A stretch of DNA of 64,000 nt from Halococcus qingdaonensis. GTDB lineage: Archaea > Halobacteriota > Halobacteria > Halobacteriales > Halococcaceae. The stretch spans positions 248,001-312,000 of the forward strand of contig NZ_CP101943.1 of the NCBI RefSeq assembly GCF_024508235.1, written 5' to 3'. A program made the position numbers and the translations under genes. Below, piece by piece: positions 30,047-53,609 of this stretch (positions are counted from its first letter, which is position 1; every line of letters begins with the position of its first letter). The notes under the pieces are model-generated. The model made no database searches. It saw only the letters and a list, made by a program, of their open reading frames with translations, and was not told where the DNA came from.

Positions 30047-30069
30047 GTAAGGTGATGCCTAATGCAGTG

Positions 30070-32529: not shown

Positions 32530-32589
32530 GCCAGAGGATGAGTTACGGATGGAAAAACTCATATCGGAATCGGGGTGATTGTGGGTCGA

Positions 32590-34080: not shown

Positions 34081-34166
34081 TCCGATGGTAGATTTGAAGA
34101 TTAGAATTTATCCGCCTGTCGGCGCTGACTGATTCTGATAGCCAGTTACATCAACGGGACTAGTGA

Positions 34167-35486: not shown

Positions 35487-35657
35487 TGCGACCGTTATTC
35501 ATAGAACGGGAAAATACGTTTCGTTAGGTGAGGCGATATAATCAGCGCAGAAAGTCAGTAGTGACTTCACTACTGTATCACCCATACCAATCACATGTCG
35601 CTGGAGGTCAAAGTAGGACTCAGGACGAATTCACGTATGAATTCGTCGAGCAGCGAT

Positions 35658-36656
35658 TCACTCTATGTAACCGAGATCGGCCAGCCGCTCTTCGACAACA
35701 TCGTCGTCCACGGATGACTCGTTTTCCCCGTCACTCCGCTGAACCTCATCGAGTGGGTTGGTTTCGCTCTCTCCGACGACCGATTCAACACGGAACCACG
35801 GCACTGTCCGGGTATATTTGGAAGACTCTTCGTGCAAGTATCTTCCACCTTCGCCGAGGTGCTCGCCGTGATCGGCGGTCACCACGATCGGGCAATCAAG
35901 CGCTCGGATCAGACGCTGGACTTCGCTAAGCACGTATTCGAGGTTCGACTTGTACGCCCGTCTGATTTCGGCGTTGGTGAGATCGCCAGATTCGACTCTC
36001 GCGATCCACTGGTCAGTCATTCGATCCCCATCTGCATCAGCGCGCTCTCTAATATGCGCGTAGCCGCCCTCCAATGCGTCTGGCCGATAGTCGCCGACGT
36101 ACGGAAAGTGCGGCTGAATGTAGTGAACGACCAGACGCGGGTGGTCGCTGTCCGCAGCCACGCGGAGTGCCGTCTCTGTAACCTCTTCGGCTGGGGTCGT
36201 TCCCAAATCATCATCCCAACCGCCCTCCCAGACGGGGATGACCTCTCTGAAGTATTGCTCTGGATTCGGGCCACTCGCCCGATTTTCGAAGTAAAAGTCC
36301 GACACCACTGGCGCAGCATTGACGTATGTCAGATCGTGGTATCTGTCCCACATATTGTGGATGTACTCGCCCGTCCAGCGGCCGCTGGACCAGACCGCCG
36401 AAAGATCGCCACCGAGAAAATCAGCATAGGCTGCTGCGAACATGTCATATCGACAGGAATCGAGGATTACGAGCGTGAATTCGTCCTGGTCGACGAACTC
36501 GGTGACTCGTGGTTTCTGGCGTGGAATCGAATATTTGCGCCGGAAGAGTTCTTCTCGTCCGCGTCGCGTCGCTGACGAGAGCTTCCGTCCGAGGTAGGAC
36601 GGGACCTTTCCTGGGTTGTGTACTCCCCGGCGTACCAACGAGAATGGCGATTTCAT
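35658..36656 (-). CDS. Sulfatase-like alkaline-phosphatase-superfamily protein, Thr type
   Basis: 332 residues. After a basic N-terminal ~50 residues, the metal-binding FTLVILDSCRYDMF (Asp66) is followed by WSSGRWTGEYIHNMW with Thr95 at the nucleophile position. It also has VHYIQPHFPY, VVTADHGEHLGEGG and a LADLGYIE tail. This subgroup (ILDSCRYD) differs from true sulfatases and is common in archaeal surface-glycan loci. It lies 27 bases after the pyruvyl transferase gene on the same strand, suggesting an operon. It is related to the 47.8 kb protein. Confidence 0.75.
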   Translation of the reverse strand: MKSPFSLVRRGVHNPGKVPSYLGRKLSSATRRGREELFRRKYSIPRQKPRVTEFVDQDEFTLVILDSCRYDMFAAAYADFLGGDLSAVWSSGRWTGEYIHNMWDRYHDLTYVNAAPVVSDFYFENRASGPNPEQYFREVIPVWEGGWDDDLGTTPAEEVTETALRVAADSDHPRLVVHYIQPHFPYVGDYRPDALEGGYAHIRERADADGDRMTDQWIARVESGDLTNAEIRRAYKSNLEYVLSEVQRLIRALDCPIVVTADHGEHLGEGGRYLHEESSKYTRTVPWFRVESVVGESETNPLDEVQRSDGENESSVDDDVVEERLADLGYIE

Positions 36657-36683
36657 CGGTGGAGAGTTCCGCCAAGACTCATT

Positions 36684-37940
36684 TCAACCCATCGTTTCAG
36701 CGATTAGTGTTGCGGTCTTCCGAGACTGCGTTTGTTGCTCGGGGAGTTGGTTCGCGATCTGCTCAGCGAGTTCATCACGATTGCTGAAGGCGTTATCAAC
36801 CATCGTCGTCAGCGAGTCAGCATCCACAGCATTGATGTCACAGAGATAGTCTTCGAGACCGAACTGTCGCATCAACCCCTTGGTTTTGAATTCATAGGCG
36901 ATAGCAACGACAGGTGTCTCGGCCAACATCGCGAGAATGTTTGAGTGCATCCGCGTACCGATGTGAAGATCCATTTGACCATACCTGTCCCGTAGTTCGT
37001 GAGTGGTGTATTCCTGAGTATCGACCGAAACCCGGTCAGAGCCACCGTGACTCATTTGATCAATGATCGACAGCGCCGGAATACGGTCGTCTGTATGGTA
37101 TCCTGCCCATCCCGTACACGTTGACAGGAACCGTACATTGGCGTCGTGTTCATCGATGAGCCAGTCGGCGGTTTCGGCTATCACCCGTTCGTAGGCGTCC
37201 TGTCCCCCCTCTCGGTCGATGTACCCCCACGTCCGAACGGAGATACTGACCGCAAGGGCATCGGACGATGCTTTATCGGGCCCATTCTCGGTTATACGCT
37301 GGATCGGCTTCGGTTCTGGAGGGTCATCAGTCATTGTGAACGCTGCATCGGCGGTGAACTCGATCGGTGTCTCGGTCACGCCGATGTCCTCAAGTAGCGA
37401 CTTCGATTCCGCATCACGTGTTGTGATGAGGTCGACGCGGTTGAGTACCCAGCACGCCCGCGAGCGCACCGTCTCGTTCTCGAATGGGCCAATCGTCTGA
37501 GCATAGAGTGCGACGGTTTTTCCGAGCGCTTTGGCGAATAGAAGCTCCCACAGGACGGCATATTTATCCGGGAAATAATTTCCAGTCAAAAACATCCCGC
37601 CAGTGCTGATCACGAGGTCGGCATCGTGGTATGGTTGTAGTTCGAGCCAGTCATCAATCGCTTCCGCTTTGGGCGGTTTCAGACCAACCCTTCGTAGCGG
37701 GGCAGTAGCGAGGAGATATGCGCCAGCAGCGTTTTTCTTGTAGGCTGTTCGACTGAATGGAGTCGTTCGCTGCTTCACAGCATCGACACCGTTGATGGTT
37801 CGCGCAGCGTGGGGGTACTCGGTCGCGACCGTGATACTTGCATCTGGAAATTGTTCTCGGAGGGCCACCAATTCGCCTTCGAGGATAGCCGCATCACCAC
37901 GGTTCGACGCGCAGTGGTAGTCCGTAATGAGAATATTCAT
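36684..37940 (-). CDS. Polysaccharide pyruvyl transferase family protein
   Basis: 418 residues of the CsaB/WcaK family (MNILITDYHCASNRGDAAILEGEL at the start; DLVISTGGMFLTGNYFPDKY; HIGTRMHSNILAML near the end). It should transfer pyruvate from phosphoenolpyruvate to a sugar to form a ketal, adding negative charge to the glycan. It begins an operon with the two Thr-type sulfatase-like genes downstream. Confidence 0.85.
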   Translation of the reverse strand: MNILITDYHCASNRGDAAILEGELVALREQFPDASITVATEYPHAARTINGVDAVKQRTTPFSRTAYKKNAAGAYLLATAPLRRVGLKPPKAEAIDDWLELQPYHDADLVISTGGMFLTGNYFPDKYAVLWELLFAKALGKTVALYAQTIGPFENETVRSRACWVLNRVDLITTRDAESKSLLEDIGVTETPIEFTADAAFTMTDDPPEPKPIQRITENGPDKASSDALAVSISVRTWGYIDREGGQDAYERVIAETADWLIDEHDANVRFLSTCTGWAGYHTDDRIPALSIIDQMSHGGSDRVSVDTQEYTTHELRDRYGQMDLHIGTRMHSNILAMLAETPVVAIAYEFKTKGLMRQFGLEDYLCDINAVDADSLTTMVDNAFSNRDELAEQIANQLPEQQTQSRKTATLIAETMG

Positions 37941-38107
37941 GTCATCAATTCATAAGTTGCGCGTAAATGAGTTTCGATACGCTATGGAATTGTATGGCTG
38001 CAATCTGCTTAATGGTCCAATCATGTTGTCCTTTTCCTTTCAATAGAATTTTTCATCCCATATTTTAGATAATATATAATATTGGGGCTTTAGACTGAGG
38101 TTGAATT

Positions 38108-39292
38108 TTATTGTATCGATTTCTGAAACGAGGAAAGCAATTTCTCGACAGCTATTTCGAGGCCAAACTTCTCGCGGATCGTCTCGCGTGCGTTGTGGCC
38201 CATCTCCATTCGAGCGTTCGCGTCCGCCAGCATGGTTGCAATCGCCTCGGCAAGTGCGTCAGCATCACGTGGTTCGACCAGCAAGCCGTTGGTTTCGTCG
38301 TCAATCATCTCGGGAATCCCGGTCACAGTCGTCGAGATGCATGGTGTTTCCATCGCCATCGCTTCTTTGATGGCGACCGGCGACCCGTCACGATCTCCGT
38401 CGGTGGCGATCACACACGGGAGGATGAACGCAGCGGCCTCGTCGTACTCCTGCCGAAGACGCTCGTCGCTCACGTTCCCGAGAAACGTCACCCGGTCCGC
38501 AACGCCCAGCTCGTCCGCACGCTGGCGAAGCATCTCCTCGCGTTCGCCGGTCCCGACGATGTGGTATTCGGTGTCCGGGTTGGTTTCGGCGAGACGAGCA
38601 ACCGCCTCGATTGCGTAGATAATGCCTTTCTTCTCGACCAAACGGGCAACGGTCAGGAGCCGGTTCGGTACCTCTCGGTCCGTGGGCTCGAATTTCGAAA
38701 CCCGTGCCGTCGCCGGAACAACATCGATCGGTCTCGTGACACCGAACTGCTTGCGGAGATACGATCGGTTGTATCGAGAGGGGACGATTACACGGTCGGT
38801 CCGGTCGAACAGTATCCCGAGTTCGTGTGGATCGGGGTCAGCGAACAGTCCATACGCGTGGGCAGTTACAGTACAGGAAACTCCAAAATGGGCAGCCGCG
38901 TAGGTCGCGGCGATTTTGTCTCGGCGAGCGAAATGGCTGTGAATATGGTCGATCGGTTTATCGAGATCGTCTACGAACTCGATATGCTGCCGAGCGAAAT
39001 TAAGAGTTCTAATGTGATCTTTTGGATGATCATAGTACAAAGACCGACCCAAAACACGACTATTGAGCAACTCGGATGTGACTAATTTGGGAGCGTCGGA
39101 TATTGTCGTTTGTTCGGCGTAGCGTACCGGTACACCAAGATGCTGATGTTCCTCGTGATGGATTTTATCATTCGGGTTGTGATAAGAGAATACAGAAACG
39201 TCGTGACCTCGCCGCGTTAGCTCATCAATCTCGTTTAGCACAAAACTCTCCGAGAGCTTCGGAAAGCTACTAAGGGAGTACAAAACGTGCAT
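38108..39292 (-). CDS. GT4 family glycosyltransferase
   Basis: 394 residues with a GT-B fold. N-terminal LYSLSSFPKLSESFVLNEIDEL matches exopolysaccharide GT4 enzymes. The C-terminal donor site has VARLVEKKGIIYAIEAVARL and the EX7E-like region EAMAMETPCISTTVTGIPEMI. It transfers a nucleotide-activated sugar to the growing lipid-linked unit at the cytoplasmic face. ATG 39292 (MHVLYSLS) is preferred to upstream codons. An AT-rich 167-base gap (37941-38107) separates it from the pyruvyl transferase. Confidence 0.85.
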   Translation of the reverse strand: MHVLYSLSSFPKLSESFVLNEIDELTRRGHDVSVFSYHNPNDKIHHEEHQHLGVPVRYAEQTTISDAPKLVTSELLNSRVLGRSLYYDHPKDHIRTLNFARQHIEFVDDLDKPIDHIHSHFARRDKIAATYAAAHFGVSCTVTAHAYGLFADPDPHELGILFDRTDRVIVPSRYNRSYLRKQFGVTRPIDVVPATARVSKFEPTDREVPNRLLTVARLVEKKGIIYAIEAVARLAETNPDTEYHIVGTGEREEMLRQRADELGVADRVTFLGNVSDERLRQEYDEAAAFILPCVIATDGDRDGSPVAIKEAMAMETPCISTTVTGIPEMIDDETNGLLVEPRDADALAEAIATMLADANARMEMGHNARETIREKFGLEIAVEKLLSSFQKSIQ

Positions 39293-39698
39293 CCGTTGAT
39301 GATATCTGCTGTGGCTATCCTCTTTAAGCAACTGATTTTCTATTTTGTGGTGGTTGGGTGCTATTTGTGGAATTTTGATACTGCCAATCAGAACCGACGG
39401 TTTTAGGCTGGCAGATGATACCCTCTACAATAGTGACCCGTCAAGACGAACACTCAACAGCGGACCCGAAATTTTCAGTCGTCATCCCGGTGTACAACGA
39501 TACCGACGGAATCCGGCTGACCTTAGAATCGGTGACCGGACAGACTTATCCGACTGACAACTATGAAGTCCTCGCTGTGGATAATGGGTCCGATGACCGG
39601 ACCCGTGATGTCATTGAAACCTATAGCGAACGCTATCCTGCTCTAGTGAGTCGTCAACTATAAACTGAAAATGCTATCTTACTGCGCATCAATACGGT

Positions 39699-40172
39699 AT
39701 GGCAATGAGCCAGTCAACGTACCCGATCGAGCTGACCGAAGAAGAACGCGACACTCTCAACGCGATCACATCCCACGGCGTTCACCGAGCACAGAAGATT
39801 ACTCGTGCGCGCATCCTACTCCAAGCAGACGACGGCAAGAGTGACTCGGATATCGCCGAGTCACTCGGCTGTAGCCCAGCTACAGCGTGGCGAACCCGGA
39901 AAAAGTTCCACGAACGCGACCGGCTTGATGCCATCGAACGCAAAAATCCTGACCGCACCTACGAACGCAAACTCGACGGTGAGGACGAAGCTCATCTCAT
40001 TGCCCTTGCTACCAGCGAGCCGCCCGACGGGCGCGCTCGCTGGACGCTCCGTCTTCTCTCCGACAAACTTGTTGTCCTCGACGAGATCGATCACGAATCA
40101 GTCTCTCACGAAACCGTGCGTCAAGTCCTCAAAAAAACGAGCTACAGCCTCACCGATCCAAGCAATGGGTGA
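39699..40172 (+). CDS. IS630 transposase, upstream frame (HTH part)
   Basis: 157 residues with a helix-turn-helix (KSDSDIAESLGCSPATAWRTRKKF) that binds the terminal repeats, followed by a winged-helix linker. The natural product is probably a fusion with the next frame. A run of seven A (40131-40137) allows a -1 slip, after which the second frame continues NELQPHRSKQWVIPPE, matching the expected family sequence. Without slippage the short protein may act as an inhibitor. Confidence 0.8.
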   Translation: MAMSQSTYPIELTEEERDTLNAITSHGVHRAQKITRARILLQADDGKSDSDIAESLGCSPATAWRTRKKFHERDRLDAIERKNPDRTYERKLDGEDEAHLIALATSEPPDGRARWTLRLLSDKLVVLDEIDHESVSHETVRQVLKKTSYSLTDPSNG

Positions 40173-40834
40173 TCCCGCCAGAGCAAGACACCGAGTTCAT
40201 CTACCACATGGAGGACGTCCTCTCACTCTACCGCGAACCATACGACCCAGACCGGCCTCTCGTTTGTTTCGACGAGCATCCCAAACAGCTACTCAAGCAG
40301 GTCGAGCAACCGCGCCCGGCTCAGCCGGGCACGGTTGCCCGCGAAGACTACCAGTACGAGCGTAACGGCACCAAGAACCTGTTTCTGGCCTCCGAACCGC
40401 TTGCCGGCTGGCGAGCGGTGAGGGTCAAAGATCGCCGAACCACTGAAGACTGGGTTCACTTCATGCAGCACCTCGTTGATCAGCACTACCCGGATGCGGA
40501 CTGCATCCGGGTGGTGCTGGACAACCTCAACACGCACAAGCCGGCAGCCTTCTACGAGTATTTCGATCCAGCTGAAGCACGGCGGATACTCGACAAGCTC
40601 GAATTTCACTTCACGCCAGTACACGGTAGCTGGCTCAATATGGCGGAAATCGAGTTCAATACGCTCCAGCAGCAGTGTCTCGACAGACGCATCCCCGACG
40701 CGGCGACGCTCCGTCAGGAGGTCGCCGCGTGGAAGAAGGAACGAAACAGCGATGATACCGACATTGACTGGCGGTTCACGACCGACGATGCCCGAATCAA
40801 ACTGAAGCGGCTATATCCTTCAATTGACGACTGA
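40169..40834 (+). CDS. IS630 transposase, downstream frame (DDE catalytic part)
   Basis: 221 residues as an isolated frame from GTG 40169, but better read as the second half of a frameshift fusion. Catalytic DDE features are VCFDEHPKQ (Asp), VVLDNLNTHKP (Asp) and LNMAEIEFNTL (Glu). The domain looks intact, so the element may be active. The stop lies inside the right inverted repeat. Confidence 0.85.
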   Translation: MIPPEQDTEFIYHMEDVLSLYREPYDPDRPLVCFDEHPKQLLKQVEQPRPAQPGTVAREDYQYERNGTKNLFLASEPLAGWRAVRVKDRRTTEDWVHFMQHLVDQHYPDADCIRVVLDNLNTHKPAAFYEYFDPAEARRILDKLEFHFTPVHGSWLNMAEIEFNTLQQQCLDRRIPDAATLRQEVAAWKKERNSDDTDIDWRFTTDDARIKLKRLYPSIDD

Positions 40835-41667
40835 CAGCACACTAGTTACGCTGCTCGTTGAGGATGAGATCCAAGGGTCCTATGCCGCTCGTAACAAGGG
40901 GGTGCGACAGGCAAAGGGCTCACTGATCGCGTTTATCGATGCCGATATGACCGTTCGCGCGGACTGGCTCGAATCGCTTGCTCTCTCACATCGCAAACAT
41001 GGATGGGACTACGCCGGCTGTGAGATGGCCGTATACACTGAGTGTGACACCTGGACTGCCAGGTATGATAAGACTCTCTATGGATTTCCCGTCGAGAAGT
41101 ATCTAAAAGAGCGTAATTTCGTCCACACCGGCTGTTTGACGACAACACAAGATGTATTCAACACCGTAGGGCTGTTTGACACCCAGATGACCTCGCAGGG
41201 AGACCACGAGTTCGGGGAGCGTGTATCTGATGCCGGATTTAATCAACAATTCATCTCTGAAGCAGTGATGTATCATCCGGCACGTACAAACCTACATACG
41301 TGGCTCAAGAAACAATCTCGTATTGGGCGTGGGGCCACAGAGAAGCGCCGACTGCATCCGGAGATTGTATGGGGATCTACATTATCGAATCCCCGCCGCT
41401 TTCTCCCGCCTCACCCTGGTCGTTTCCACGAACGACTTACGGATGCAGTTGACGATCCCACGCTGGCTGAAAGTATTGCATTCTACGCACTCGACACCGC
41501 TAGCAAGTATGCCCGGACTGTAGGTAGTCTCCGTGAACAATATCGAGCGAAATTCGAGAAACATACCAAAGGAACAGATGGCACAAGGTGAAGCGAGCTC
41601 AACTGAATTCGTTGGCCGGTTATTCTGAAACCGTCCAATTCATGTATCCGGCTCATGCAGGTGGCCT

Positions 41668-42369
41668 ATGAACGGTCGACGCCAAGCTATCGTCCTTGCA
41701 GCCGGACAGGGCAAACGACTCCGTCCGCTTACTGACGAGACACCGAAAACGCTACTGAATGTCGGCGAACACGCGATCCTCGAACACATCCTTCAAGCGC
41801 TCGAAACGACGGGCTACGAGCGAGTAGTGGTGGTCACGGGCTTCGGTAACGAACAAATCGAGACCCACTGCCAGCCGCGTGAAGAGCTCGATGTCGAGTT
41901 CGTTCACAACGACCAGTTCGCTTCGACCAACAACATCTACTCGCTCTGGCTCGCGAAGGAATACGCTCTTGACGGGTTCACTCTTATCAATTCAGATACC
42001 ATCTTCTCAGCAGCCAGCCTCTCCGAACTACAGGACACATCGGGGAGCGCGCTGCTCGTCGACACAGAAAAGGAACTCGACGACGAAGAGATGCAGGTCG
42101 CGTTCGGATTGGACACAATTAGCGACATCAGCAAGGAGATCGATGGCGACGGCGAGTACATCGGTGTTGCAAAGTTCACCGCCGAGCACGCAACGACGTT
42201 GTTCGAACACATTGAGGAGTTCATCGAGCGTGATGCCGTCAACGACTGGTACGAGGCAGCGTTCGATCGCCTGTTCGACGATGCGGATGTCGGGTTCGTT
42301 CGTATCGACGAGTCGTGGGCCGAGATCGACACCCCCGACGATCTGGAACACGCCAGAGAACAGTGGTAA
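41668..42369 (+). CDS. Nucleotidyltransferase, sugar-phosphate or LicC-like
   Basis: 233 residues. The N-terminal [25 protein letters not shown] is the signature loop of sugar-1-phosphate and choline/alcohol-phosphate nucleotidyltransferases. [11 protein letters not shown] carries the metal Asp. The small size and the [11 protein letters not shown] stretch are like LicC-type cytidylyltransferases, so it may make a CDP-activated alcohol or sugar. It overlaps the CDP-glycerol transferase-like gene by a few bases, which fits a donor-making role for that enzyme. Confidence 0.75.
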
Positions 42370-43562
42370 CGCTACGAGGAGTGATCGAGCGCCTGTTCGA
42401 CGGCGTGAAATACGCGCTGCTTGGCGGGCTGTTCGTACTTTCGTATCTCTGGCCGAGAGACGAGTCGCTGTGGGTGTTCGGTGCGAAAGGCGGGACAGCG
42501 TTCGTCGACAACTCGAAATATCTGTACCTCTACACGGCTGCGGAGCGCGAACACATTCGCCCAGTCTGGCTTTCGAAAAACGAGACCGTTATCGAGGAGC
42601 TGCAAGCAGCAGGATACGAGGCGTACCACACGGATTCCCTGCGTGGAATTTACCTCAATCTCAGGGCAGGGTTTGTCTTCGTCAGCGACGGCGTGGCGGA
42701 CACGAACCGATGGTGTTTCGGTGGTGCAACGGTTGTCAACTTGTGGCATGGGGTCGGCTTGAAGAAAGTCCGATGGGATAGTAACACCACGACCGGTCCA
42801 CTATTCGGGAAACTGTTTGACTGGCCCATATACAGACTATTCAAACGGTGCGATTGGTTCGTGGTGACGAGTGAGGCGATGGTTGAACCGTTTGCAGCGG
42901 GTCGCCGACAGCCTACAGATCGGATTCTCACGACTGGCTATCCGAGAAATGATTTTCTGGAAGACATCGTTCCAGGCCACAGTCTCGCGGCCGAAACCAA
43001 GGTGTACGAGCAGTGCCGACAACTATCGGAAGACGGAACAATGTTCCTCTATGTTCCTACCTATCACACTGAAACCGGCGAACGTATCGAAGACCATCTT
43101 AGTCTGCTGGAGCTCAACGCACTGCTGGCCGAAATCGACGCATATCTGATCGTCAAGCTACATCCTCACGATGAATTCGACGTCGATAGTACGAAGCTAT
43201 CGAGAATCACCACGCTCCCGTCGACAATCGATATCTATCCGCTGTTGAAATACACTGACGCACTGCTCACAGACTATTCATCGATCTATTTCGATTATCT
43301 TCTGCTCGATAAGCCGATCGTGTTCTATCCGTTCGATCTCGAAGAATATCGGCAAGAGCGTGATTTTTTCCTTGATTACGAGCGAGTCACGCCCGGTCCA
43401 GTGGCCACTGATTTCGATGAATTGTTAGAGCATCTGAACGAAGTGGCTGAAGTGGATACGTTTGCGACGGAACGTCAAGTAGTGCGTGACGAATATCTCC
43501 AGCAGCCGATCGAAAGCCGCTGCAAAACCATTTGTGATCGGTTCGATGCGACATGCGACTGA
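42363..43562 (+). CDS. CDP-glycerol glycerophosphotransferase family protein
   Basis: 399 residues of the TagF/TagB-type family, which polymerises or transfers polyol-phosphate from CDP-glycerol or CDP-ribitol in bacterial teichoic acid synthesis. Characteristic segments are [37 protein letters not shown] and [20 protein letters not shown]. One hydrophobic N-terminal stretch (~12-28) may dock it to the membrane. GTG 42363 or GTG 42381 could be the start. Its presence suggests phosphodiester-linked units in the glycan of this archaeon. Confidence 0.85.
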
Positions 43563-43579
43563 GCTGCGAGCGCGGAGAG

Positions 43580-43589
43580 TTATAAAAAT
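43580..43589 (+). promoter_or_regulatory. TATA box before the 43.7 kb glycosyltransferase
   Basis: TTATAAAAAT is a good archaeal box A in the short gap after the CDP-glycerol transferase-like gene. It lies ~80 bases before ATG 43665. It suggests a separate transcript for the following GT4 gene. Confidence 0.55.
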
Positions 43590-43664
43590 CCGCTCAACGT
43601 TGGGGACCGAAACGATATCCTTTTGGACGCGATTCGAGCAGATACGCCCGTGTCGCACTCACCA

Positions 43665-44816
43665 ATGAAAGTGTGCTTTCTGATCAACGGACTCGGGCCA
43701 GCTGGTGCAGAAACGCTACTGCTTGATATCGTTACCCATACCGATGCTGACGCTGATATCGATTACACTGTTTGCTTCCTTGAAGGAGAGGACACGCTTG
43801 TTCCGGAGTTCGAGAACACGGGTGCCCGCGTCGTCGACTTCGAGGCGAAATTCAAGTTCGATCCACGAGCGATGTGGCGACTGGCTCGCTTCTTTCAGCG
43901 CGAGGAATTCGACATATTGCATACTCACCTTCCCTATTCACAGACTCTTGGACGAATATTCGGACGGCTTGGTGGTCAGACAACAGTAGTAAGCACTCAG
44001 CATGACTTTCGTAATAAGTACCATCCTGTTACACGTACCCTTGAACGAGTGACGCGACCTCTTGATACGATGACTGTAGCTGTTTCTCGCAGCGTTGAAC
44101 GAGATTTCACCGGGGAATCGCATCTCTACCCGGATCATGGCGATGGTTGGTGTACGATTCACAATGGGATTGGTGTGGACAATTTCTCAGAATATTTAGA
44201 ACAATCTAACAATACGTTAGTATACGATGAGTGGGAGATTGGCCAAGGGCCAATATTCATGACTGCTGGGAGATATGTTTCCCCAAAACGTCAGGACGTT
44301 CTTATTCGAGCGATGAAACGCGTCACTGAAAAAATCCCTGACGCTACATTGCTCGTAATTGGCTGGGGACCGCTTGAAGACGAACTTCGGGAACTCGTAC
44401 GCAGGTGCGGTCTAGAAGGAAGCGTGCATATAACTGGTCGAGTCCCGAGCGTGGAACCGTATTATGCCGCAGCAGATGTGTTTGTTTTCCCGTCAGAGCG
44501 CGAATCATTTGGTATTGTTCTATTAGAGGCAATGGCTGCTAAACTTCCTATCGTTGCCACCAATATCCCTGGCCCGCGTGAAGTGGTCGATAATAATGAG
44601 ACTGGTTTGCTTGTTCCGGCTGGTTCGCCGGAAGATCTTGCTGAGGCGATGATTGAATTTCGATCAGAATCGAAGCGATCTGCGTTTGGACGCCAAGGTT
44701 ACGACCATGTTCTCAACAATTTCGACATCGGACAAACTGTATCATCTTATCTACAACTCTATGAAAAATTACTACAATCTTATGAGAATAGTGAGAAAAA
44801 CCAATATACTAATTAA
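43665..44816 (+). CDS. GT4 family glycosyltransferase
   Basis: 383 residues, GT-B fold. The N terminus MKVCFLINGLGPAGAETLLLDI is typical of exopolysaccharide GT4 enzymes. The donor site shows GRYVSPKRQDVLIRAMKRV and FPSERESFGIVLLEAMAAKLP (EX7E motif). Codon use is distinctly more AT-rich than the genome core, as for other genes from 43.6 to 50 kb, hinting at horizontal acquisition. ATG 43665 is preferred over upstream in-frame codons because it lies just before the first strand. Confidence 0.85.
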   Translation: MKVCFLINGLGPAGAETLLLDIVTHTDADADIDYTVCFLEGEDTLVPEFENTGARVVDFEAKFKFDPRAMWRLARFFQREEFDILHTHLPYSQTLGRIFGRLGGQTTVVSTQHDFRNKYHPVTRTLERVTRPLDTMTVAVSRSVERDFTGESHLYPDHGDGWCTIHNGIGVDNFSEYLEQSNNTLVYDEWEIGQGPIFMTAGRYVSPKRQDVLIRAMKRVTEKIPDATLLVIGWGPLEDELRELVRRCGLEGSVHITGRVPSVEPYYAAADVFVFPSERESFGIVLLEAMAAKLPIVATNIPGPREVVDNNETGLLVPAGSPEDLAEAMIEFRSESKRSAFGRQGYDHVLNNFDIGQTVSSYLQLYEKLLQSYENSEKNQYTN

Positions 44817-44871
44817 AACTCAGGTAGTGAAATGGTGATAGTCGCTGTATTGCTGAATGCATACGCATTCG

Positions 44872-46068
44872 TTAATATAAAACTTTCGAATCGAGTAAAT
44901 ATGAAGAGAACCATTCCACAATGCCAACAGCACCGAACAGATAGACTACCCAAATGAACATCTGGCGATGACGTACAGCTGTTCCGACATTTGCAGTACC
45001 AAGGCCAAATAGGATGCTTCCGGTAATCACCCAGACTCCGAGTGCTACCCAGCCTGTAGATACCCGCCAATCCAATTGGTGAGCGAGTAGTGAGCGGATA
45101 CCACGCACAGCGGCGACGGTGAATGCAACATTTCCGAGAGCTTCGGCTGCAACCACTACATCGGCGGCTGTACCAACCATCCATGGGAATGGAGTAAACA
45201 GAAAGTAGACCACTGCGACAGGTGCGAATGCGAACATCCGGAGTGGTTGCCGAAACGTCACGCTAGCGAGGTAAGCGGTTCGACCAACTGCACGTTCGGA
45301 ATGGAGGAATGACAAATAGCGGGCAGCCCGTTTGGACACCTGCCATATTCCATAGAGGAAAGCTATAGAAAGAGCACTTGTTCCGACCCAATGAGTGTGG
45401 AGCCGATCACGTACATCCCCGTCCGTCCTTGCATCGAGATAGACTACCGCGGCAGCGCTGATCGCGAGTGCCTCAAGTATCCATAGTTCCCATCGCAGGA
45501 GTGGCAACATGATAAGTCCTGCCCCACAGAGGGCGATACGGCGCGCTTGCGAGAGTGACGAAGGACCGATGGCAAGACGGACGACGCTCGTCAGCAGAAA
45601 TAACACTGCACTTTCACGCAAAACCGTTGATTCGACGAGGACGAAACTCGGGTATACAGCTATTGGGACCGCGGCAAGAAGCCCTACCCACCGAGAACGA
45701 AGGAACCGACCCAGAGTAAAAACGTTCCAAACAGCAAGGACACCGAGAGCCGCGAGGCTGATGCGGGCATAGACATCACTTGGCCCCCACAACAGATAGG
45801 CCGGTGAGAGTACTAGCCCCCAAAAGTTATACACATTAACGATGCCGCCGAGAATATCCAGCGGCGGTGAGAACAACAGCCCTGTTTGTGGATTACCTGC
45901 CAGAATTGTCATCGCAGTGTGGCTGGCGTGGCTAGCTATTCTCGGAGCATCGTTCAGTGCATAGGGGTTGATATCGAAAGTCGCGAGACCAACGCCAAGG
46001 AGCCGGGCGAGCGCCGCGACTGCAAGGAGAACAAACTCTGGAAGAGGGCCTGATCGAGTGGATTGCAT
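44872..46068 (-). CDS. Multi-spanning membrane protein, probable lipid-linked glycosyltransferase
   Basis: 398 residues with about nine to eleven hydrophobic segments. The early FDINPYALNDAPRIASHAS loop and the later RHRQMFIWVVYLFG segment resemble membrane proteins of archaeal surface-polysaccharide loci, including distant dolichyl-phosphate-mannose-transferase (GT39/GT-C) relatives. It could be a GT-C transferase or a polymerase; no catalytic motif is certain. It is in the same orientation as the ligase-like gene, separated by 260 bases in which I see no gene (46069-46328). Confidence 0.55.
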   Translation of the reverse strand: MQSTRSGPLPEFVLLAVAALARLLGVGLATFDINPYALNDAPRIASHASHTAMTILAGNPQTGLLFSPPLDILGGIVNVYNFWGLVLSPAYLLWGPSDVYARISLAALGVLAVWNVFTLGRFLRSRWVGLLAAVPIAVYPSFVLVESTVLRESAVLFLLTSVVRLAIGPSSLSQARRIALCGAGLIMLPLLRWELWILEALAISAAAVVYLDARTDGDVRDRLHTHWVGTSALSIAFLYGIWQVSKRAARYLSFLHSERAVGRTAYLASVTFRQPLRMFAFAPVAVVYFLFTPFPWMVGTAADVVVAAEALGNVAFTVAAVRGIRSLLAHQLDWRVSTGWVALGVWVITGSILFGLGTANVGTAVRHRQMFIWVVYLFGAVGIVEWFSSYLLDSKVLY

Positions 46069-46328
46069 GGATGTGATTGTGTTTTTTCTGATGGTGGAAT
46101 ATAGTCTTTGAACTATCTATACAATCCGTGGCTGGACTTCTATCACGATTTGGGTTAGTGTATACTGGTGCCAGAAACCACTGCCTTTGGAACAGCAGTA
46201 AGAGTACAGTGAGATTGTAGCGATCACCTCACAGAGACGGTGCAGACACCAGGCATTGGGAGAACACACGAGATGCCTGAGTTTGAGTGTACTGTGTCTA
46301 ACCAATACGGGATTCATTGTTGAAATGG

Positions 46329-47570
46329 TCAGGTAAATATTCGTATGATACCCCATCGCCACGCTTCGGATGATCTAAACCGCAATATAATCGCATTTTC
46401 ATCCTGTTGCGCGTATCCAATCGCGAGTGCACTGGCAAACGATATCGGTGCAAGACCAAATATTGTCCCCGTTTCAAATACAAAGAACACGAGCGCCGCG
46501 ACTACGAGGGCGAGAGTTGTTGGATCGGATGCCCTCAGTGCAACACGTAGCGCACTCATACTCAAGAAGAGGTAGCCGACACCCCCGACAATTCCTCCCA
46601 TGAAAAACATCCGGATATAGCTGTTGTGGGTACTGAAGCCAGAATATTGTGATTCGGGCGACAGAAACGACTTGAGAACGTCTGCACTAGCACCTGGCCC
46701 CCATCCAAATGCCGGGCGTTCGATGGTGGCTCTGAGGGCCGCCGCCCAGAGTTCAAACCGACCACTAAAATCAACATTGATGGTGGCTGCAACAACAATA
46801 ACTGCTACGATAGCAACTAACCCGCCGAGTGTAGCAATTGCCGTTATCTGTGGATTGGTTCTATGTGCAACAACAAGCACTCCACCACCTGCTAACAGTG
46901 CGAGAAGCGCTGCTCGTGATCCCGAGATGACGACCACGATAGCACAAATAATTCCGAGAATGGCGGCTGCACCACGATTTGATGCTGTATTCTCCGATTG
47001 ATGATTGAATACGATCCCGCCAGCTGCAAGTGTTCCAAGAAGGGCAACATTTGCGAGTATATTTGGATTCTTGAACAATGAGAGTGGGACACCATAACTG
47101 ATGTCGATAATCGATACTCGGCGATAAATTCCTAGTGGACCAACAGGACCGATGATTGCTGTGATAATACCAAACGCTCCAAATCCAGCTGCAATTACCA
47201 CTAGCGAGCGGTAAGCAGTCCGTCGTGGAATTATCGATGGGAGAACGAACATCGTAGCACCACTGAAAACAATGAACGCACCAACACGTAATATTCCGCC
47301 GACCGTCGGTGAGCGGACGAGTCCAACGAAGAGTGCAAACCATACCGTGGCAGTTCCGATAAGGATTCCCGGTCGAGCCGTTATCGCGAGATTGCTGCGA
47401 GTCCACAGAGCATACACGAATACAATAATAAATACGAGTGAAAATATAATATATGACGTTGTTTGAGGTATCTCCGGAATGACCGTTATTGAGGAGGTCA
47501 GGATGAGTGCAGAGGCAGCCGCAAGCGAATGGCGCACGCAACTGCCTTGTTCCACTCCGTCAAAAAACAT
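46329..47570 (-). CDS. O-antigen ligase/polymerase family membrane protein
   Basis: 413 residues with about eleven membrane helices. The Wzy_C/WaaL region is visible around residues 215-330 (VVISGSRAALLALLAGG, then the extracellular FGWGPGASADVLKSF and THNSYIRMFFMGGIVGG). In bacteria such proteins polymerise flipped repeat units or attach the chain to its anchor. With the Wzx-type flippase it implies a Wzx/Wzy-like route. The 272-base gap upstream (47571-47842) is a divergent promoter region. Confidence 0.75.
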   Translation of the reverse strand: MFFDGVEQGSCVRHSLAAASALILTSSITVIPEIPQTTSYIIFSLVFIIVFVYALWTRSNLAITARPGILIGTATVWFALFVGLVRSPTVGGILRVGAFIVFSGATMFVLPSIIPRRTAYRSLVVIAAGFGAFGIITAIIGPVGPLGIYRRVSIIDISYGVPLSLFKNPNILANVALLGTLAAGGIVFNHQSENTASNRGAAAILGIICAIVVVISGSRAALLALLAGGGVLVVAHRTNPQITAIATLGGLVAIVAVIVVAATINVDFSGRFELWAAALRATIERPAFGWGPGASADVLKSFLSPESQYSGFSTHNSYIRMFFMGGIVGGVGYLFLSMSALRVALRASDPTTLALVVAALVFFVFETGTIFGLAPISFASALAIGYAQQDENAIILRFRSSEAWRWGIIRIFT

Positions 47571-47842
47571 TCTGATCGGCTGTTCCGGATCCTGAATCGA
47601 TAGGCAGCAAAAAATACGAACCGAACATACAACACAGTGACTATCCTTTTTACAGAGCTGAACATATCTTCACCTGTCGCTGGATTCCGTGATTTCGTTC
47701 GCTACTCACAGCACATAATGACCGTATTGCGACAAAGATGACTTAACTAAATAGCGCCGTCTGTTGCTACACAATTCCTTGAGAATACGTTCAGCAACTC
47801 TTATAGGTAGAACCGGTGTACCGACCGGAACGATAACCGACA

Positions 47843-48790
47843 ATGAGCGTCTCCAAAGCGATTGCTGGTCTCCGGAAAAGATTTCCTTACAGATTCGATG
47901 ATCTCGTCCATGGCCTCCAACATCCTCGTGAAGTTGCATCCGAGCTGAACCAGCTGTACAACCATTGGCGAGCAGGACAAGCCTACAATCCCGCGGGAAC
48001 TGACGTCTTTGAGGAGGACTGGGATAACCTCCTCATCCTCGACGCCTGCCGCTACGACGAATTCACTCGCCGTTCGAATCTTCCCGGTACCACTGAGCAC
48101 CGCATATCGCGCGGAAGTACGAGCCCGGAGTTTGTCCGAGGAAACTTTGGCGGAAAGCGTCTGCACGATGTCGTCTACGTGACCGCCAACGATTGGTATG
48201 CGAAGACCAAAGACGACATCGACGCGGAGATCCATGCCCTCGATTTCGTTGACCGCGACTTGTTCGACGGACGAACATCACACCCAGAGACAGTCGCCGA
48301 TGCTGCACGTAAGGCTGCGGAAGAATATCCTGACAAACGCCTCGTCGTCCATTTCATGCAGCCGCATCACCCGTTTCTCGGCCCGACCGCGGAGCGGTTC
48401 GACCACACTGCGAAGCATTTCATCGACGGACGCTTCGGTGATACGATCCGAGAAACCGATGTGACCCACGCGGACGTGATGCAAGCCTACCGCGAAAACC
48501 TCGATATCGTTCTGGAAGAAATCGAACCACTCCTCGATGATCTTCTCGGGAAAACCGTTGTGACCGCTGATCACGGCGAGCTCCTCGGCGACCGCGAGCG
48601 ACCGATCCCGGTGACACTCTATCGCCATCCCGAAGGCGTCTATGTTGACAGCTTGGTCAAAGTCCCCTGGCATATCTATCAGAACGGCGAACGGAGGGAC
48701 ATCATCGCCGAACAACCGACGGAGACGACGGACGATTTCGATATCGAACAGATCGAGCAGAACCTTCGAGATTTGGGCTACAGAACATAG
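47843..48790 (+). CDS. Sulfatase-like alkaline-phosphatase-superfamily protein, Thr type
   Basis: 315 residues, related to the 35.7 kb protein: NLLILDACRYDEF (Asp67), then SRGSTSPEFVRGNF with Thr93 at the nucleophile position, VHFMQPHHPFLGP, VVTADHGELLGD and a NLRDLGYRT tail. It has no signal peptide. It is likely an enzyme acting on a phosphate group of a glycan intermediate, as argued for the other two. Its stop is two bases before the next glycosyltransferase start, so the two form an operon. Confidence 0.75.
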   Translation: MSVSKAIAGLRKRFPYRFDDLVHGLQHPREVASELNQLYNHWRAGQAYNPAGTDVFEEDWDNLLILDACRYDEFTRRSNLPGTTEHRISRGSTSPEFVRGNFGGKRLHDVVYVTANDWYAKTKDDIDAEIHALDFVDRDLFDGRTSHPETVADAARKAAEEYPDKRLVVHFMQPHHPFLGPTAERFDHTAKHFIDGRFGDTIRETDVTHADVMQAYRENLDIVLEEIEPLLDDLLGKTVVTADHGELLGDRERPIPVTLYRHPEGVYVDSLVKVPWHIYQNGERRDIIAEQPTETTDDFDIEQIEQNLRDLGYRT

Positions 48791-48791
48791 C

Positions 48792-49937
48792 ATGTCTGAT
48801 AGCCACAGCTCATCTCTCGCGGATGCGAATATTCTCCAAGTTATCACCCGCTCCGATTGGGGTGGTGCGCCGCTCGTCGTCAAACTTCTCGCAACCCGCA
48901 CCGAGGCAAATACGGCAGTCGCTTGCGGTACCGGTGGCAGATTGATCGACGAACTCCAACAGGAGAACGTTCCCGTGTTTGAGCAGCCGTCACTGCAAAG
49001 CCCACCAGATCCAGTGGCCGACACACGTGCGTTCGCCGATCTGTACCGTCTGTTCCGGCGCGAATCGTTCGATCTCGTTCACTGTCACAGTACGAAGGCT
49101 GGATTGCTGGGACGGCTCGCCGCGAGACTCACAGGGACACCAACCATTTTCACCGTTCATGGCTGGGGATTCTACAACACGGGCTACGATCGCGCCGCGC
49201 CAGTCATCGCGTACGGCGAACGTGCGCTCGCACGAATCACGGATGCTGTCGTCTGTGTTGCGGAAAACGATCTCGTCGAAGGACGAAGTCGTGGCATCGT
49301 AGAACATACAGAAACGACCGTCATTCACAACGGAATTCCATCGCTTTCGAGTCCACAGAACCGTCTAACTCTCTCCGAAGAGGCTGATATCGAACCGGAT
49401 TCGCTCGTTATCGGTGCGATAGCGAGGCTTGATCCAGCGAAAAACCCGATCGAAATACTTCGAATCGGTAGCGAACTCCAGCAACGAGGTCACGAGATAG
49501 AACTCGTCATGATCGGCGATGGACCACTTGCTGAGAAATGCGAACGATACGCTGATGAGCATAATATCGACGTTCATTTTCTCGGATTTTATATGCGCGC
49601 ACGCGAACTCCTCGAAGATTTCGATGTATTTCTCATGCCATCTCGGTTTGAGGGATTCCCGATCACCGTGCTCGAATGCCTCCACGCCGGTGTTCCGGTC
49701 GTCGCCTACGACGTTGGCGGAATAGCGGAAGCAGTTACCGACGGCGAAACCGGGTTTGTGATTCCATCTGGCAACCAGGAGGCGTTCGTTGATCGAGTTG
49801 AGAAACTTGTCGCTGATCCCAAACGTCGCAAGGCAATGAGTGCACACGCTGAGACGGTCGCACAGTCTCACTATACAGCCAAGCGAATGGTAGCTGACTA
49901 CGAACGTGTTTATAATAGTGTGATTGGCACTACGTAA
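48792..49937 (+). CDS. GT4 family glycosyltransferase
   Basis: 381 residues, GT-B fold. N-terminal ILQVITRSDWGGAPLVVKLLA and FDLVHCHSTKAGLLGRLAA resemble capsule enzymes of the WcaL/EpsD type. The donor site reads IGAIARLDPAKNPIEILRIG and MPSRFEGFPITVLECLHAGVPVV. ATG 48792 directly follows the sulfatase-like stop; longer upstream frames overlap that gene and are not supported. Confidence 0.9.
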   Translation: MSDSHSSSLADANILQVITRSDWGGAPLVVKLLATRTEANTAVACGTGGRLIDELQQENVPVFEQPSLQSPPDPVADTRAFADLYRLFRRESFDLVHCHSTKAGLLGRLAARLTGTPTIFTVHGWGFYNTGYDRAAPVIAYGERALARITDAVVCVAENDLVEGRSRGIVEHTETTVIHNGIPSLSSPQNRLTLSEEADIEPDSLVIGAIARLDPAKNPIEILRIGSELQQRGHEIELVMIGDGPLAEKCERYADEHNIDVHFLGFYMRARELLEDFDVFLMPSRFEGFPITVLECLHAGVPVVAYDVGGIAEAVTDGETGFVIPSGNQEAFVDRVEKLVADPKRRKAMSAHAETVAQSHYTAKRMVADYERVYNSVIGTT

Positions 49938-50078: not shown

Positions 50079-53000
50079 ATGGATGATGATCTGTCTTTCG
50101 ATAGACGGCGATTCTTGAAGACAGCAGGTTTCTTTGGTTTGCTTGGCGGGGCGTCAACGATCAAAGCTACCGCTTTGCCGTCAAACGGTAAACAGAATGA
50201 ATTGCTTATCGGAATCAACCCGACGGCGAACTCCGCTCGGACAGCCAAACGCGCGCTACCAACCGGGGCTCGAATCATCAGCCAAAACACCACTCTTGGC
50301 TATGTGCGGGCTGAACTACCGGAACAGGCATCTGTGGCCTCAAAGTCCCGAACCACTAGCAGAGTTGCTAGTCGGCCAGGCGTTGAGTACGCCGAACCAA
50401 ACGTGATTTACGAGGCGGCCCTTGTTCCGAACGATCCTCGCTTCGGTGATCAGTACGCATCAAAGACAGTAAATGCACCTGATGCGTGGGACACAACCCT
50501 CGGCGATGCTGACGTCACAATTGCTGTCGTTGATCAAGGAGTTAAGTACGACCACCCGGATCTTGAGGATAACATTGCGAGCAACGTTGGCCGGGATTTC
50601 GTCAATAATAGCGGTGATCCGTATCCCGAGGTACTTGCGGACGAACATCACGGCACCCACGTTGCGGGTATTGCGGCCGCTGGGACCGACAACGCTACTG
50701 GCATCGCGGGCGTCAGTAACGCGACGTTGCTCAGTGTTCGTGCACTCAATGAAACTGGATCAGGATACTCCTCCGATATTGCCGACGGAATCCAGTGGGC
50801 TGCGGACAACGGTGCGGACATCATTAACCTCTCACTCAGTGGTAGTGGAAATTCTGCGACGCTGCAAAAGGCTGTTACCTATGCCCACGAGAAAGGCGTG
50901 CTGCTCGTCGCTGCCGCGGGTAACGACTACAGAGGTCCAGTTAGCTATCCAGCGGCCTACGACGAATGTATCGCTGTCTCAGCACTTGATCCTGATGGTA
51001 GCCTTGCGTCCTACTCGAATACAGGCTCTCAAGTTGAACTCGCTGCGCCGGGAACGAACCTCCTTTCGACGTGGACTGATAACGACTATGCGACGCTCTC
51101 TGGCACATCGATGGCAACACCGGTTGTCGCAGGAATTTCAGCGTTAGTGCTGTCCCAACGTGATTACTCAACTGGACAGCTCCGTACCTATCTCAAGGAC
51201 AACGCAGTCGACAGCGGCCTGGCTAGTAATGAGCAGGGTGCTGGTCGAGCAGATGTGGGTGGACTTTCACATTCATCGGAGAATATCATAAGCATCGACG
51301 GGTCCGGACGGCATACAGACTACAGTATTACTGTCTCAGGGGATCTCGCAAAGAGCACTGCGAACGGTGGGACGATCGGCTCTAGTTCCGAAATATCGGG
51401 ATCGACCGCCACGGGGTATGTCTGGGGTGGCACCGACAGCTATGCCTTCTCCGGCGAAATCATTAACCTCGATATCGGTACCGGTGCCGATGTCTTTATT
51501 AACGGCGAACGGACCGATCCCAATCAGTACGCCGGTAACATCCTCTCGATCGAGGGTCAGGATTCACGTGCTGACTATACGTTCTCCATTTCAGGTAAAA
51601 TCACAAAGAGTACTGCGAATGGCGGAACGATCGGCTCCAGTTCCGATGTGTCGGGATCGACCGCCACGGGCTACGTCTGGGGTGGCACCGATAGCTACGC
51701 CTTTTCCGGTGATATTGAATCATTCAATCTCGATGGAAAAGCTAACGTCACCCTCAACAACGAACCGGCTCATGTCGGTCGACGACCTGACCATATTTTC
51801 TCGATCGAAGGTCAAGGCTCACGTGCCGACTACACACTCTCTGTCACAGAAGACCTCTCGAAGAGCACTGCGAACAACGGAACGATCGGCTCCAGTTCCG
51901 AAGTGTCGGGATCAACCGCCACGGGCTACGTCTGGGGTGGCACCGACAGTTACGCATTCTCCGGGAAGATCGCCTCTCTCAGCCTTGACGGTGATGCGTC
52001 GATATATCTTGACGGTCAAAAGATCAATCCCACGCAGTTCTCCGATAATATCCTCTCGATCGAGGGTCAGGATTCACGTGCCGACTATACGTTCTCTGTC
52101 TCAGGTAAACTCACAAAGAGTACTGCGAACGATGGAACGATCGGCTCCAGTACCAAGGTATTGGAATCGACCGCGACTGGTTACGTCTGGGGTGGAACCG
52201 ATAGCTATGCCTTCTCTGGCAATATTGAATCATTCAATCTCGGTGGCGACGCTGAAGTCTTCCTCAACGGCAAAAGAATAGATCCTGCCGAATATCTTGA
52301 TAACATCCTCTCGATAGAAGGTCATGGTTCCCGCGCTGACTATACATTCTCTGTCTCAGGAGACCTCGCAAAAAGCACGGCCAACGGTGGAACGACCGGT
52401 TCCAGTTCCGAAATATCGGGATCGACTGCTACGGGCTACGTCTGGGGTGGCACCGACAGCTATGCCTTTTCCGGCGAGTTGCGTAAGATTAATATCGATA
52501 ACGATAGCACGATTCACCTTAATGGTGAAGAACTGAATACTGAGTCGCCGTCTGTCGCTATCTACAGCGGCCTCTCCGACGCGGATTTTAGCACCGTCGA
52601 TCAGATGGAAACGTGGCAGAACACCGGCTACGATGTCCAGAACTTGTTCGTTCCGTGGAATCCCAACAAAGGGCATATGAACTGGCTATTTGATCATATT
52701 CTTCCGAGGATCTGGAACGCCGGACGAACACCACTGATCACGTGGGAACCGTACACGCCCGGCGCACGAACTGCCTCAGTCGATACCCAGTCACTCGTTG
52801 AGCAAAACGAATATGACACCTACATCGAGAGTCTTGCCGACACCACACCGAACAATATCGAAGTTCGCATCGGCAACGGTGACTACGACCGATACATCGA
52901 CCGCTGGGCAGGCCGACTGCGAGATTCCCTCTCGAAATCTAGCGGCCGACGAGCGTATCTCCGACTCGCTCACGAAATGAACGGCGACTGGTATCCATGG

Positions 53001-53609
53001 TCACCGACCGTCGGCAATTCTAGCCCTCGGAGCTACGTCAAGATGTGGCGACACGTCCACAACCGATTCGACCGGCAGGGCATCGGCGACGACCTCCAGT
53101 GGATGTGGTGTGTGAATGCCGAGGACGTTGGCTCCCACAGTGCCGAACAACTGTTCCCAGGCAACCGATACGTCGACTGGCTTGGTCTCGACGGCTACAA
53201 CTGGGGTCGTAGCAAGAGTTGGTCGAGCTGGGATTCGCCCGAGAGCATCTACGGCGGCATGCTCGATCGGCTTTCTGGTCTCTCGAACAAGCCGGTCTGT
53301 GTCGCGGAATTCGCCTCTTCCTCGAAGGTGAACGGTGGCCACGATCCGCGGCGCAAAGGAGAGTGGATTCGCGACGCGCTCGCATACTTCGAGAATCGCG
53401 GCGTCGATATGTGGTGTTGGTTTAACGAGGACAAAGAGACCGACTGGGCAGTCTTCAACGGGGAGCGTGGTACTGAGCGACTTAGTCACAACGGTAGGCA
53501 GGTCAATGCATACAGTGCCTATCGCGAAGCGATCGATACGTACGCGACTATCGGCGGTGCGGCGACAGCGGAAGCAAATGCTGCAGAACAGGCCGTCAGT
53601 GACGATTGA
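50079..53609 (+). CDS. Tat-exported subtilase fused to five 85-residue repeats and a GH26-like glycosidase
   Basis: 1176 residues. Residues 1-33 form a Tat signal (DRRRFLKTAGFFGLLGG), ~38-112 a propeptide-like segment and ~115-395 an S8 protease domain. The triad is complete: Asp152 (VVDQGVKYDHPD), His191 (HHGTHVAG) and Ser344 (SGTSMATP). Residues ~402-821 are five copies of the repeat shared with the 30 kb beta-helix protein. Residues ~825-1150 form a TIM-barrel glycosidase of GH26 type, with acid/base Glu966 in LRLAHEMNGDWYPW and nucleophile Glu1077 in VCVAEFAS. It should act outside the cell on the glycan (GH26 enzymes cut mannans and related beta-glucans) and on proteins, possibly itself. 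It ends the glycan locus on this side. Confidence 0.85.
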   Translation: MDDDLSFDRRRFLKTAGFFGLLGGASTIKATALPSNGKQNELLIGINPTANSARTAKRALPTGARIISQNTTLGYVRAELPEQASVASKSRTTSRVASRPGVEYAEPNVIYEAALVPNDPRFGDQYASKTVNAPDAWDTTLGDADVTIAVVDQGVKYDHPDLEDNIASNVGRDFVNNSGDPYPEVLADEHHGTHVAGIAAAGTDNATGIAGVSNATLLSVRALNETGSGYSSDIADGIQWAADNGADIINLSLSGSGNSATLQKAVTYAHEKGVLLVAAAGNDYRGPVSYPAAYDECIAVSALDPDGSLASYSNTGSQVELAAPGTNLLSTWTDNDYATLSGTSMATPVVAGISALVLSQRDYSTGQLRTYLKDNAVDSGLASNEQGAGRADVGGLSHSSENIISIDGSGRHTDYSITVSGDLAKSTANGGTIGSSSEISGSTATGYVWGGTDSYAFSGEIINLDIGTGADVFINGERTDPNQYAGNILSIEGQDSRADYTFSISGKITKSTANGGTIGSSSDVSGSTATGYVWGGTDSYAFSGDIESFNLDGKANVTLNNEPAHVGRRPDHIFSIEGQGSRADYTLSVTEDLSKSTANNGTIGSSSEVSGSTATGYVWGGTDSYAFSGKIASLSLDGDASIYLDGQKINPTQFSDNILSIEGQDSRADYTFSVSGKLTKSTANDGTIGSSTKVLESTATGYVWGGTDSYAFSGNIESFNLGGDAEVFLNGKRIDPAEYLDNILSIEGHGSRADYTFSVSGDLAKSTANGGTTGSSSEISGSTATGYVWGGTDSYAFSGELRKINIDNDSTIHLNGEELNTESPSVAIYSGLSDADFSTVDQMETWQNTGYDVQNLFVPWNPNKGHMNWLFDHILPRIWNAGRTPLITWEPYTPGARTASVDTQSLVEQNEYDTYIESLADTTPNNIEVRIGNGDYDRYIDRWAGRLRDSLSKSSGRRAYLRLAHEMNGDWYPWSPTVGNSSPRSYVKMWRHVHNRFDRQGIGDDLQWMWCVNAEDVGSHSAEQLFPGNRYVDWLGLDGYNWGRSKSWSSWDSPESIYGGMLDRLSGLSNKPVCVAEFASSSKVNGGHDPRRKGEWIRDALAYFENRGVDMWCWFNEDKETDWAVFNGERGTERLSHNGRQVNAYSAYREAIDTYATIGGAATAEANAAEQAVSDD
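51282..52541 (+). repeat. Five tandem 255-bp coding repeats
   Basis: Units begin at 51282, 51537, 51792, 52047 and 52302, again an exact 255-bp period, homologous to the repeats at 31.5-32.5 kb. Each includes STAN(G/N/D)GT and GYVWGGTDSYAFSG. Divergence among the five is greater than among the first three at 31.5 kb. Confidence 0.9.

Follow-up and report, generated by a model that had tools for sequence, protein, structure and literature searches.

A predicted secreted protease-repeat-glycosidase fusion, with repeats matched across a variable glycan island, in Halococcus

Results

A two-enzyme chain at the edge of a glycan island

We analysed a stretch of 64,000 nucleotides from Halococcus qingdaonensis (contig NZ_CP101943.1; hereafter the window). 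The locus comprises a gene for a protease-repeat-glycosidase fusion, a glycan-biosynthesis island to its left, and a second repeat-bearing gene at the far end of that island (Table 1).

Table 1. Coordinates of the fusion gene, its parts and the adjoining island, as positions in the window
Feature	Position	Strand	Remarks
Left island end: putative Tat-exported beta-helix-like protein	30052..32529	+	four repeats at about 31513/31521-32526
Variable glycan-biosynthesis interior	32575..49937	.	Pfam hits; low GC; poorly conserved between genomes
S8-repeat-GH26 fusion gene	50079..53609	+	open frame; same layout in 7/10 Halococcus genomes
Twin-arginine (Tat) export signal, predicted	50079..50177	+	FDRRRFLKTAG motif at residues 7-17; lipobox not seen
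Fervidolysin-type propeptide of subtilase	50193..50402	+	PF22148, residues 39-108, 21.2 bits vs cut-off 21
Peptidase S8 catalytic domain	50511..51245	+	PF00082, residues 145-389, E=8.3e-58
Five tandem 85-aa all-beta repeats	about 51267/51282..52535/52556	+	exact 255-nt spacing; HMM boundaries
GH26 (beta/alpha)8 barrel	52554..53546	+	PF02156 E=1.7e-10; phmmer and Foldseek to CtLic26A
Acid/base E966; nucleophile E1077 of the GH26 barrel	52974-52976; 53307-53309	+	

The fusion frame starts with ATG and encodes 1176 residues with zero internal stops. A first-pass annotation of the sequence had read it as a Tat-exported chain with a complete S8 triad, five repeats of 85 residues and a GH26-type catalytic pair, and our analysis recovered these features at the same residues. 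Pfam Peptidase_S8 confirmed the protease (PF00082, 196.4 bits against a cut-off of 21.8); D152, H191 and S344, together with the oxyanion-type N282, were invariant across all seven fusions found in Halococcus. The repeat period was exactly 85 residues, and the twin-arginine motif of the predicted export signal was conserved as RR in 7/7 fusions. Glyco_hydro_26 (PF02156) matched residues 959-1042 with 41.2 bits (cut-off 20.2), a match that covers only profile positions 153-232 of 311; both catalytic Glu columns, E966 and E1077, were invariant among 45 relatives. Only about 12 and 8 residues make up the junctions between the parts of the protein, lengths that speak neither for nor against self-release of the glycosidase.

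The barrel is closest to a lichenase

A phmmer search of solved structures gave the lichenase CtLic26A as the best match (E=1.3e-31), followed by mannanases with E values of 4.5e-8 and worse. The structure prediction that the first-pass annotation had proposed gave an AlphaFold2 model of the barrel with pLDDT 88.4, whose best Foldseek match was again CtLic26A (E=7.9e-23, TM 0.87 by target length). GH26 enzymes topped the list, and the lichenase stood ahead of the mannanases by fold too. H965-E966 (HEMNGDW) and E1077 (VAEFAS) aligned with the acid/base and nucleophile of CtLic26A. Pfam, phmmer and Foldseek all agreed on a GH26-like barrel, the opposite of the HMM outcome that the first-pass annotation had named as refuting its view, and by sequence and predicted fold this barrel is closest to CtLic26A, not to the mannanases. 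With a lichenase as the nearest solved structure, mannans, which had been suggested for activity tests alongside beta-glucans, are not the leading substrate candidate. The nearest bacterial GH26 relatives were those of two cyanobacteria, beside cellulose-synthase-family glycosyltransferases. A 2024 study describes more than 100 haloarchaeal and other archaeal GH26 proteins ("clade I") that are very dissimilar to proven mannanases (PMC10963439); the fusion barrel plausibly belongs to this clade.

The fusion arose once and is under selection

The S8-repeats-GH26 layout was present on one chain in seven of 10 Halococcus genomes, with 1092-1334 residues, 4-8 repeats and both catalytic sites intact. 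An assembly artefact or artificial fusion, the possibility against which the first-pass annotation had warned, was ruled out by the occurrence of the same chain in seven independent species genomes; the window genome itself is a single contig of 2.70 Mb. Two further genomes (G005 and G006) encode repeats-GH26 without S8, and in G007 a repeats-GH26 gene (L126:8493-11302) is broken into several frames. The split could reflect pseudogene formation, phase-type variation or misassembly of the repeats.

The seven fusions formed one group in the tree of S8 domains (support 100) and one group in the tree of GH26 domains (support 99), the latter adjoining the protease-less versions. Since the remaining three of the 10 Halococcus genomes have protease-less repeats-GH26, the fusion evidently had a single origin, inside Halococcus. 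One genome from a neighbouring genus encodes S8 with three repeats and without GH26, and the window genome also has a standalone subtilase of halolysin type (50% identity) and two adjacent standalone GH26 genes; the layout therefore seems to combine modules that occur separately as well. Between species, dN/dS was 0.07-0.21 for S8 and 0.08-0.19 for GH26, rough values with synonymous sites near saturation. These ratios indicate purifying selection on both catalytic domains in all seven fusions. One and the same clade excluded the window copy in the S8 tree and included it in the GH26 tree (AU test p=0.08), which is suggestive of intragenic recombination at the repeats; we do not claim it.

Besides the fusion, two GH26-like genes lie tail to tail, with a four-base overlap, at L159:5140-7454 (G000:C1:2265139-2267453). 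One has a Tat-like signal and a cysteine, maybe a lipobox, and the other is without an evident signal. H. morrhuae and H. thailandensis have retained both genes as a pair (L012, L013).

Outside Halococcus, an S8-GH26 chain was not found in 118 relatives or among the best 80 relatives of the GH26 domain. The longest-frame GH26 matches outside the genus in a 393-genome sample of the phylum (G625, G553, G348) were without S8. Two candidates, the GH26 frames of 1048 aa in G004 and 722 aa in G007, were rejected because they are open frames extended too far upstream of standalone GH26 genes. The search for S8 plus GH26 architectures thus gave seven Halococcus chains and none outside the genus in the genomes searched. 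The accessible part of a 2008 survey of prokaryotic S8 domain architectures contains no chain of S8 and a glycosyl hydrolase (PMC2605481), and neither GH26 with a subtilase nor a protease-glycosidase chain of such layout was found in the open-access literature, in keeping with the first-pass annotation, which knew of no described enzyme with such a layout. The two-enzyme chain is real, conserved and apparently undescribed: its families are known, and we know of no precedent for their combination.

A widespread repeat module

The repeats of the fusion had zero matches to Pfam and NCBIfam models, marginal matches to PHROGs and no sequence match to known CBM families. A single unit was modelled as an all-beta domain (pLDDT 89.6). 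Foldseek returned no significant match to it, the best being a cellulose-binding domain (CBM2) of C. fimi with E=0.018 and TM 0.40; we regard this match as a lead, no more. The repeat was present in 207 of 292 sampled Halobacteria genomes, with most matches in Halococcus. When 10 repeat proteins were scanned with Pfam, most of those with a match had a right-handed beta-helix or pectate-lyase-like domain, and one had GH16. The ~85-aa repeat is a widespread module of haloarchaeal secreted proteins, which accompanies beta-helix, GH16, GH26 and S8 domains.

The island and its left-end gene

The GC content of the island was 0.49-0.55, versus 0.60-0.69 in the flanks, and the fusion gene forms its right end. 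Pfam identified in the interior a flippase, two sulfatase-fold proteins and a relative, a pyruvyl transferase, glycosyltransferases, a CDP-glycerol phosphotransferase and a Wzy_C polymerase/ligase. The left-end protein had no Pfam match, and its assignment as beta-helix-like draws on homologues of like layout; the repeat HMM hit its residues 491-824. Copies of this repeat family (D1) numbered four in the left-end gene and five in the fusion gene. The window, H. thailandensis (G009) and G004 share the order and orientation of the two genes, which are separated by 16.6-17.5 kb. Between these genomes the interior genes were mostly unrelated or 25-60% identical, versus 75-95% for the outer flank genes. 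Judged by gene content and conservation, the island has the layout of a switchable surface-glycan locus.

Two adjacent frames in the interior (39699-40834 and 40824-41591) resemble an IS630-type transposase and abut a family 2 glycosyltransferase. The latter begins inside its conserved domain and has 255 aa, versus 378 aa for a relative in L121; insertion of the IS630-type element may therefore have truncated it. Elsewhere in the window (24064-25341), a 425-aa frame resembles, by eye only, a TnpB/OrfB-type protein of an IS605-family element.

Repeats match across the island within a genome

Arrays were homogeneous within each gene. When left and right arrays came from the same genome, they were on average 0.64 identical in the window, 0.67 in G004 and 0.59 in H. 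thailandensis, equal to the level within single arrays; for arrays from different genomes the value was mostly 0.40-0.52. We added three genomes with the left gene on another contig. G002 agreed (0.48), G008 showed no match (0.42), and G003 gave 0.58 with a left gene that was picked after the match was seen. Left-right identity was 0.56 within the same genome versus 0.41 across genomes. The true pairing was the best of 120 permutations with five genomes (without G003), the best of 720 with six (G003 included, either candidate), and the best of 6 for the three linked loci alone. As a control, the repeats of an off-island beta-helix paralogue matched those of their orthologues (0.59) and not those of the fusion in the same genome (0.39).

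The degree of DNA similarity differed among pairs. One G003 pair (L187 vs L123, two contigs) had 97% DNA identity and 99% at third positions, which suggests recent copying between the two end genes. The best G004 pair had 98% protein identity but 72% at third positions. In the window, protein identity was 0.64 versus 0.41 across genomes, and third-position identity was 0.40 versus a background of 0.36. The latter two cases suggest old copying with retained protein similarity.

The envelope of the host

Halococcus is reported to have a sulfated heteropolysaccharide envelope, versus the proteinaceous S-layer of most haloarchaea (PMC13321033). The S-layer signal family TIGR04207 was absent from the window genome, with a positive control in Haloferax volcanii; one 651-aa protein with the general halo_surf_dom was present. 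Given the reported envelope and the absence of TIGR04207, the turnover at an S-layer that the first-pass annotation had considered fits poorly and is unlikely. Its two-enzyme chain and GH26-like assignment stand; the annotation had missed both the glycan island and the presence of matching repeats in the left-end gene. A search of the genome with PF13469, this family only, found no sulfotransferase.

Discussion

Proposed function

On the basis of the layout, its single origin, the preserved catalytic sites under selection, the island-edge position and the repeat matching described above, we give an even chance to the reading that the fusion acts as a bifunctional enzyme, secreted and tethered to glycan, and remodels the polymer of its own island. 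The chain would be exported through Tat, and the subtilase would probably mature by propeptide removal. The repeat rod would tether the protein to extracellular polysaccharide from the adjacent island, and the GH26 barrel might cut beta-linked stretches of this polymer in trimming, remodelling or chain release. The subtilase may have its targets among the proteins of that wall or matrix, perhaps including the fusion itself or its neighbours. The repeats would serve in polymer recognition, like their counterparts on the left-end beta-helix protein, with both arrays kept matched to the local polymer; their presence at both island ends suggests a common target for the two enzymes, the polymer of this island.

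This reading is supported by the purifying selection on both catalytic domains in seven fusions, by the fusion forming the right-hand boundary of a glycan island in three linked genomes, and by an interior that varies between conserved flanks while same-genome repeats match and the off-island control does not. It is also supported by the company of the repeat in other haloarchaea (pectate-lyase-like beta-helices and GH16), by the cellulose-synthase-family glycosyltransferases adjoining the cyanobacterial relatives of the barrel, and by the reported polysaccharide wall of Halococcus (PMC13321033). Against it stand the repeat fold, which has no significant structural match and a weak one to CBM2, the lack of a left-right match in G008, and the failure to find a PF13469 sulfotransferase; the island polymer could be wall, capsule or another glycan. 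Because three of the 10 Halococcus genomes are without the protease part, the protease is not essential to the glycosidase role. Tentatively, and with less than even confidence, we would go further: the locus may be switchable, the interchangeable repeats of the end enzymes changing with it and both enzymes staying addressed to the strain's own wall polymer. In short, it may be a cassette in which maker and remodeller of an archaeal polysaccharide envelope are matched, a summary that we hold equally tentatively.

Alternative explanations

The chief competing account of the repeat pattern is neutral gene conversion; for the function it is scavenging. Conversion could match neighbouring arrays ~17 kb apart, and the repeats would then be spacers or generic anchors, uninformative on the glycan. 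The near-identity of the G003 pair (97% of DNA, 99% of third positions) and the homogeneity of arrays within each gene are consistent with it. However, the G004 pair combines 98% protein identity with 72% at third positions, the window pair retains protein identity of 0.64 with third positions near background, and the flank-side catalytic domains have remained conserved alongside changing repeats; we consider this explanation somewhat unlikely. As a scavenger, the enzyme would take external protein and beta-glucan or glucomannan for food, its repeats binding insoluble substrate like cellulose-binding modules. The nearest characterised relative is indeed a lichenase, and in halolysins, which are secreted proteases, a C-terminal extension serves in substrate binding (PMC3158780). 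But the neighbouring genes are biosynthetic, the repeats vary with the island, and haloarchaeal mannan-degraders have a different GH26 clade in catabolic clusters (PMC10963439), so that scavenging appears unlikely.

The subtilase might instead be a built-in processing enzyme that cuts itself off and frees the repeat-GH26 part, as in zymogen-like enzymes. A propeptide and a full triad are present, and the three relatives with repeats-GH26 and no protease indicate that this part can work alone; however, the junctions are short, a conserved linker with an obvious cleavage site was not found in them, and conservation of the protease equals that of the glycosidase. We regard such self-processing as quite unlikely. 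Two predicted lytic activities on one exported chain with strain-variable repeats could also serve as a weapon against competing halococci, stripping them of protein and glycan. This is very improbable: the repeats track the carrier's own glycan island and are not independently diversified, and no immunity gene was recognised.

Significance

The chemistry of the Halococcus wall was established decades ago; a report of genes that build or remodel it was not found in the open-access literature. The locus gives named candidates, namely a variable biosynthesis island and two predicted secreted enzymes with a common repeat at its ends. If the repeats bind the island polymer, the module would be an addressable handle for archaeal surface glycans, and the repeats would reveal the glycan of a given strain. 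We know of no precedent for the single-chain protease-glycosidase layout or for the paired repeat arrays, and the layout was confined to one genus in the genomes searched.

Comparison with known systems

Halolysins, the haloarchaeal S8 proteases such as SptA, have in common with the fusion a signal, a propeptide, an S8 core and a C-terminal extension; the extension of SptA aids substrate binding (PMC3158780), whereas the fusion has repeats and a second enzyme in its place. The S8-plus-repeats architecture is not mentioned in the accessible part of the study on haloarchaeal GH26 clade I (PMC10963439). The closest solved relative of the barrel by sequence and fold, CtLic26A (the GH26 module of Endoglucanase H from Acetivibrio thermocellus; PDB 2bv9/2vi0), is about 28-29% identical to it. 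CtLic26A is a cellulosomal plant-glucan enzyme, without a protease fusion and without such repeats.

BcsZ is a secreted glycanase encoded with bacterial cellulose synthase. BcsZ-type loci resemble the present one in placing the gene of a secreted glycanase next to those for synthesis of the polymer that it presumably cuts, and the likeness extends to the cyanobacterial relatives of the barrel, which adjoin a cellulose-synthase-family gene. We know of no protease in BcsZ-type loci, nor of repeat modules common to both ends of such a locus. Bacterial capsule loci have a variable interior of sugar genes between conserved flanks, as does the Halococcus island; unlike them, this island is flanked by predicted secreted enzymes with common repeat arrays.
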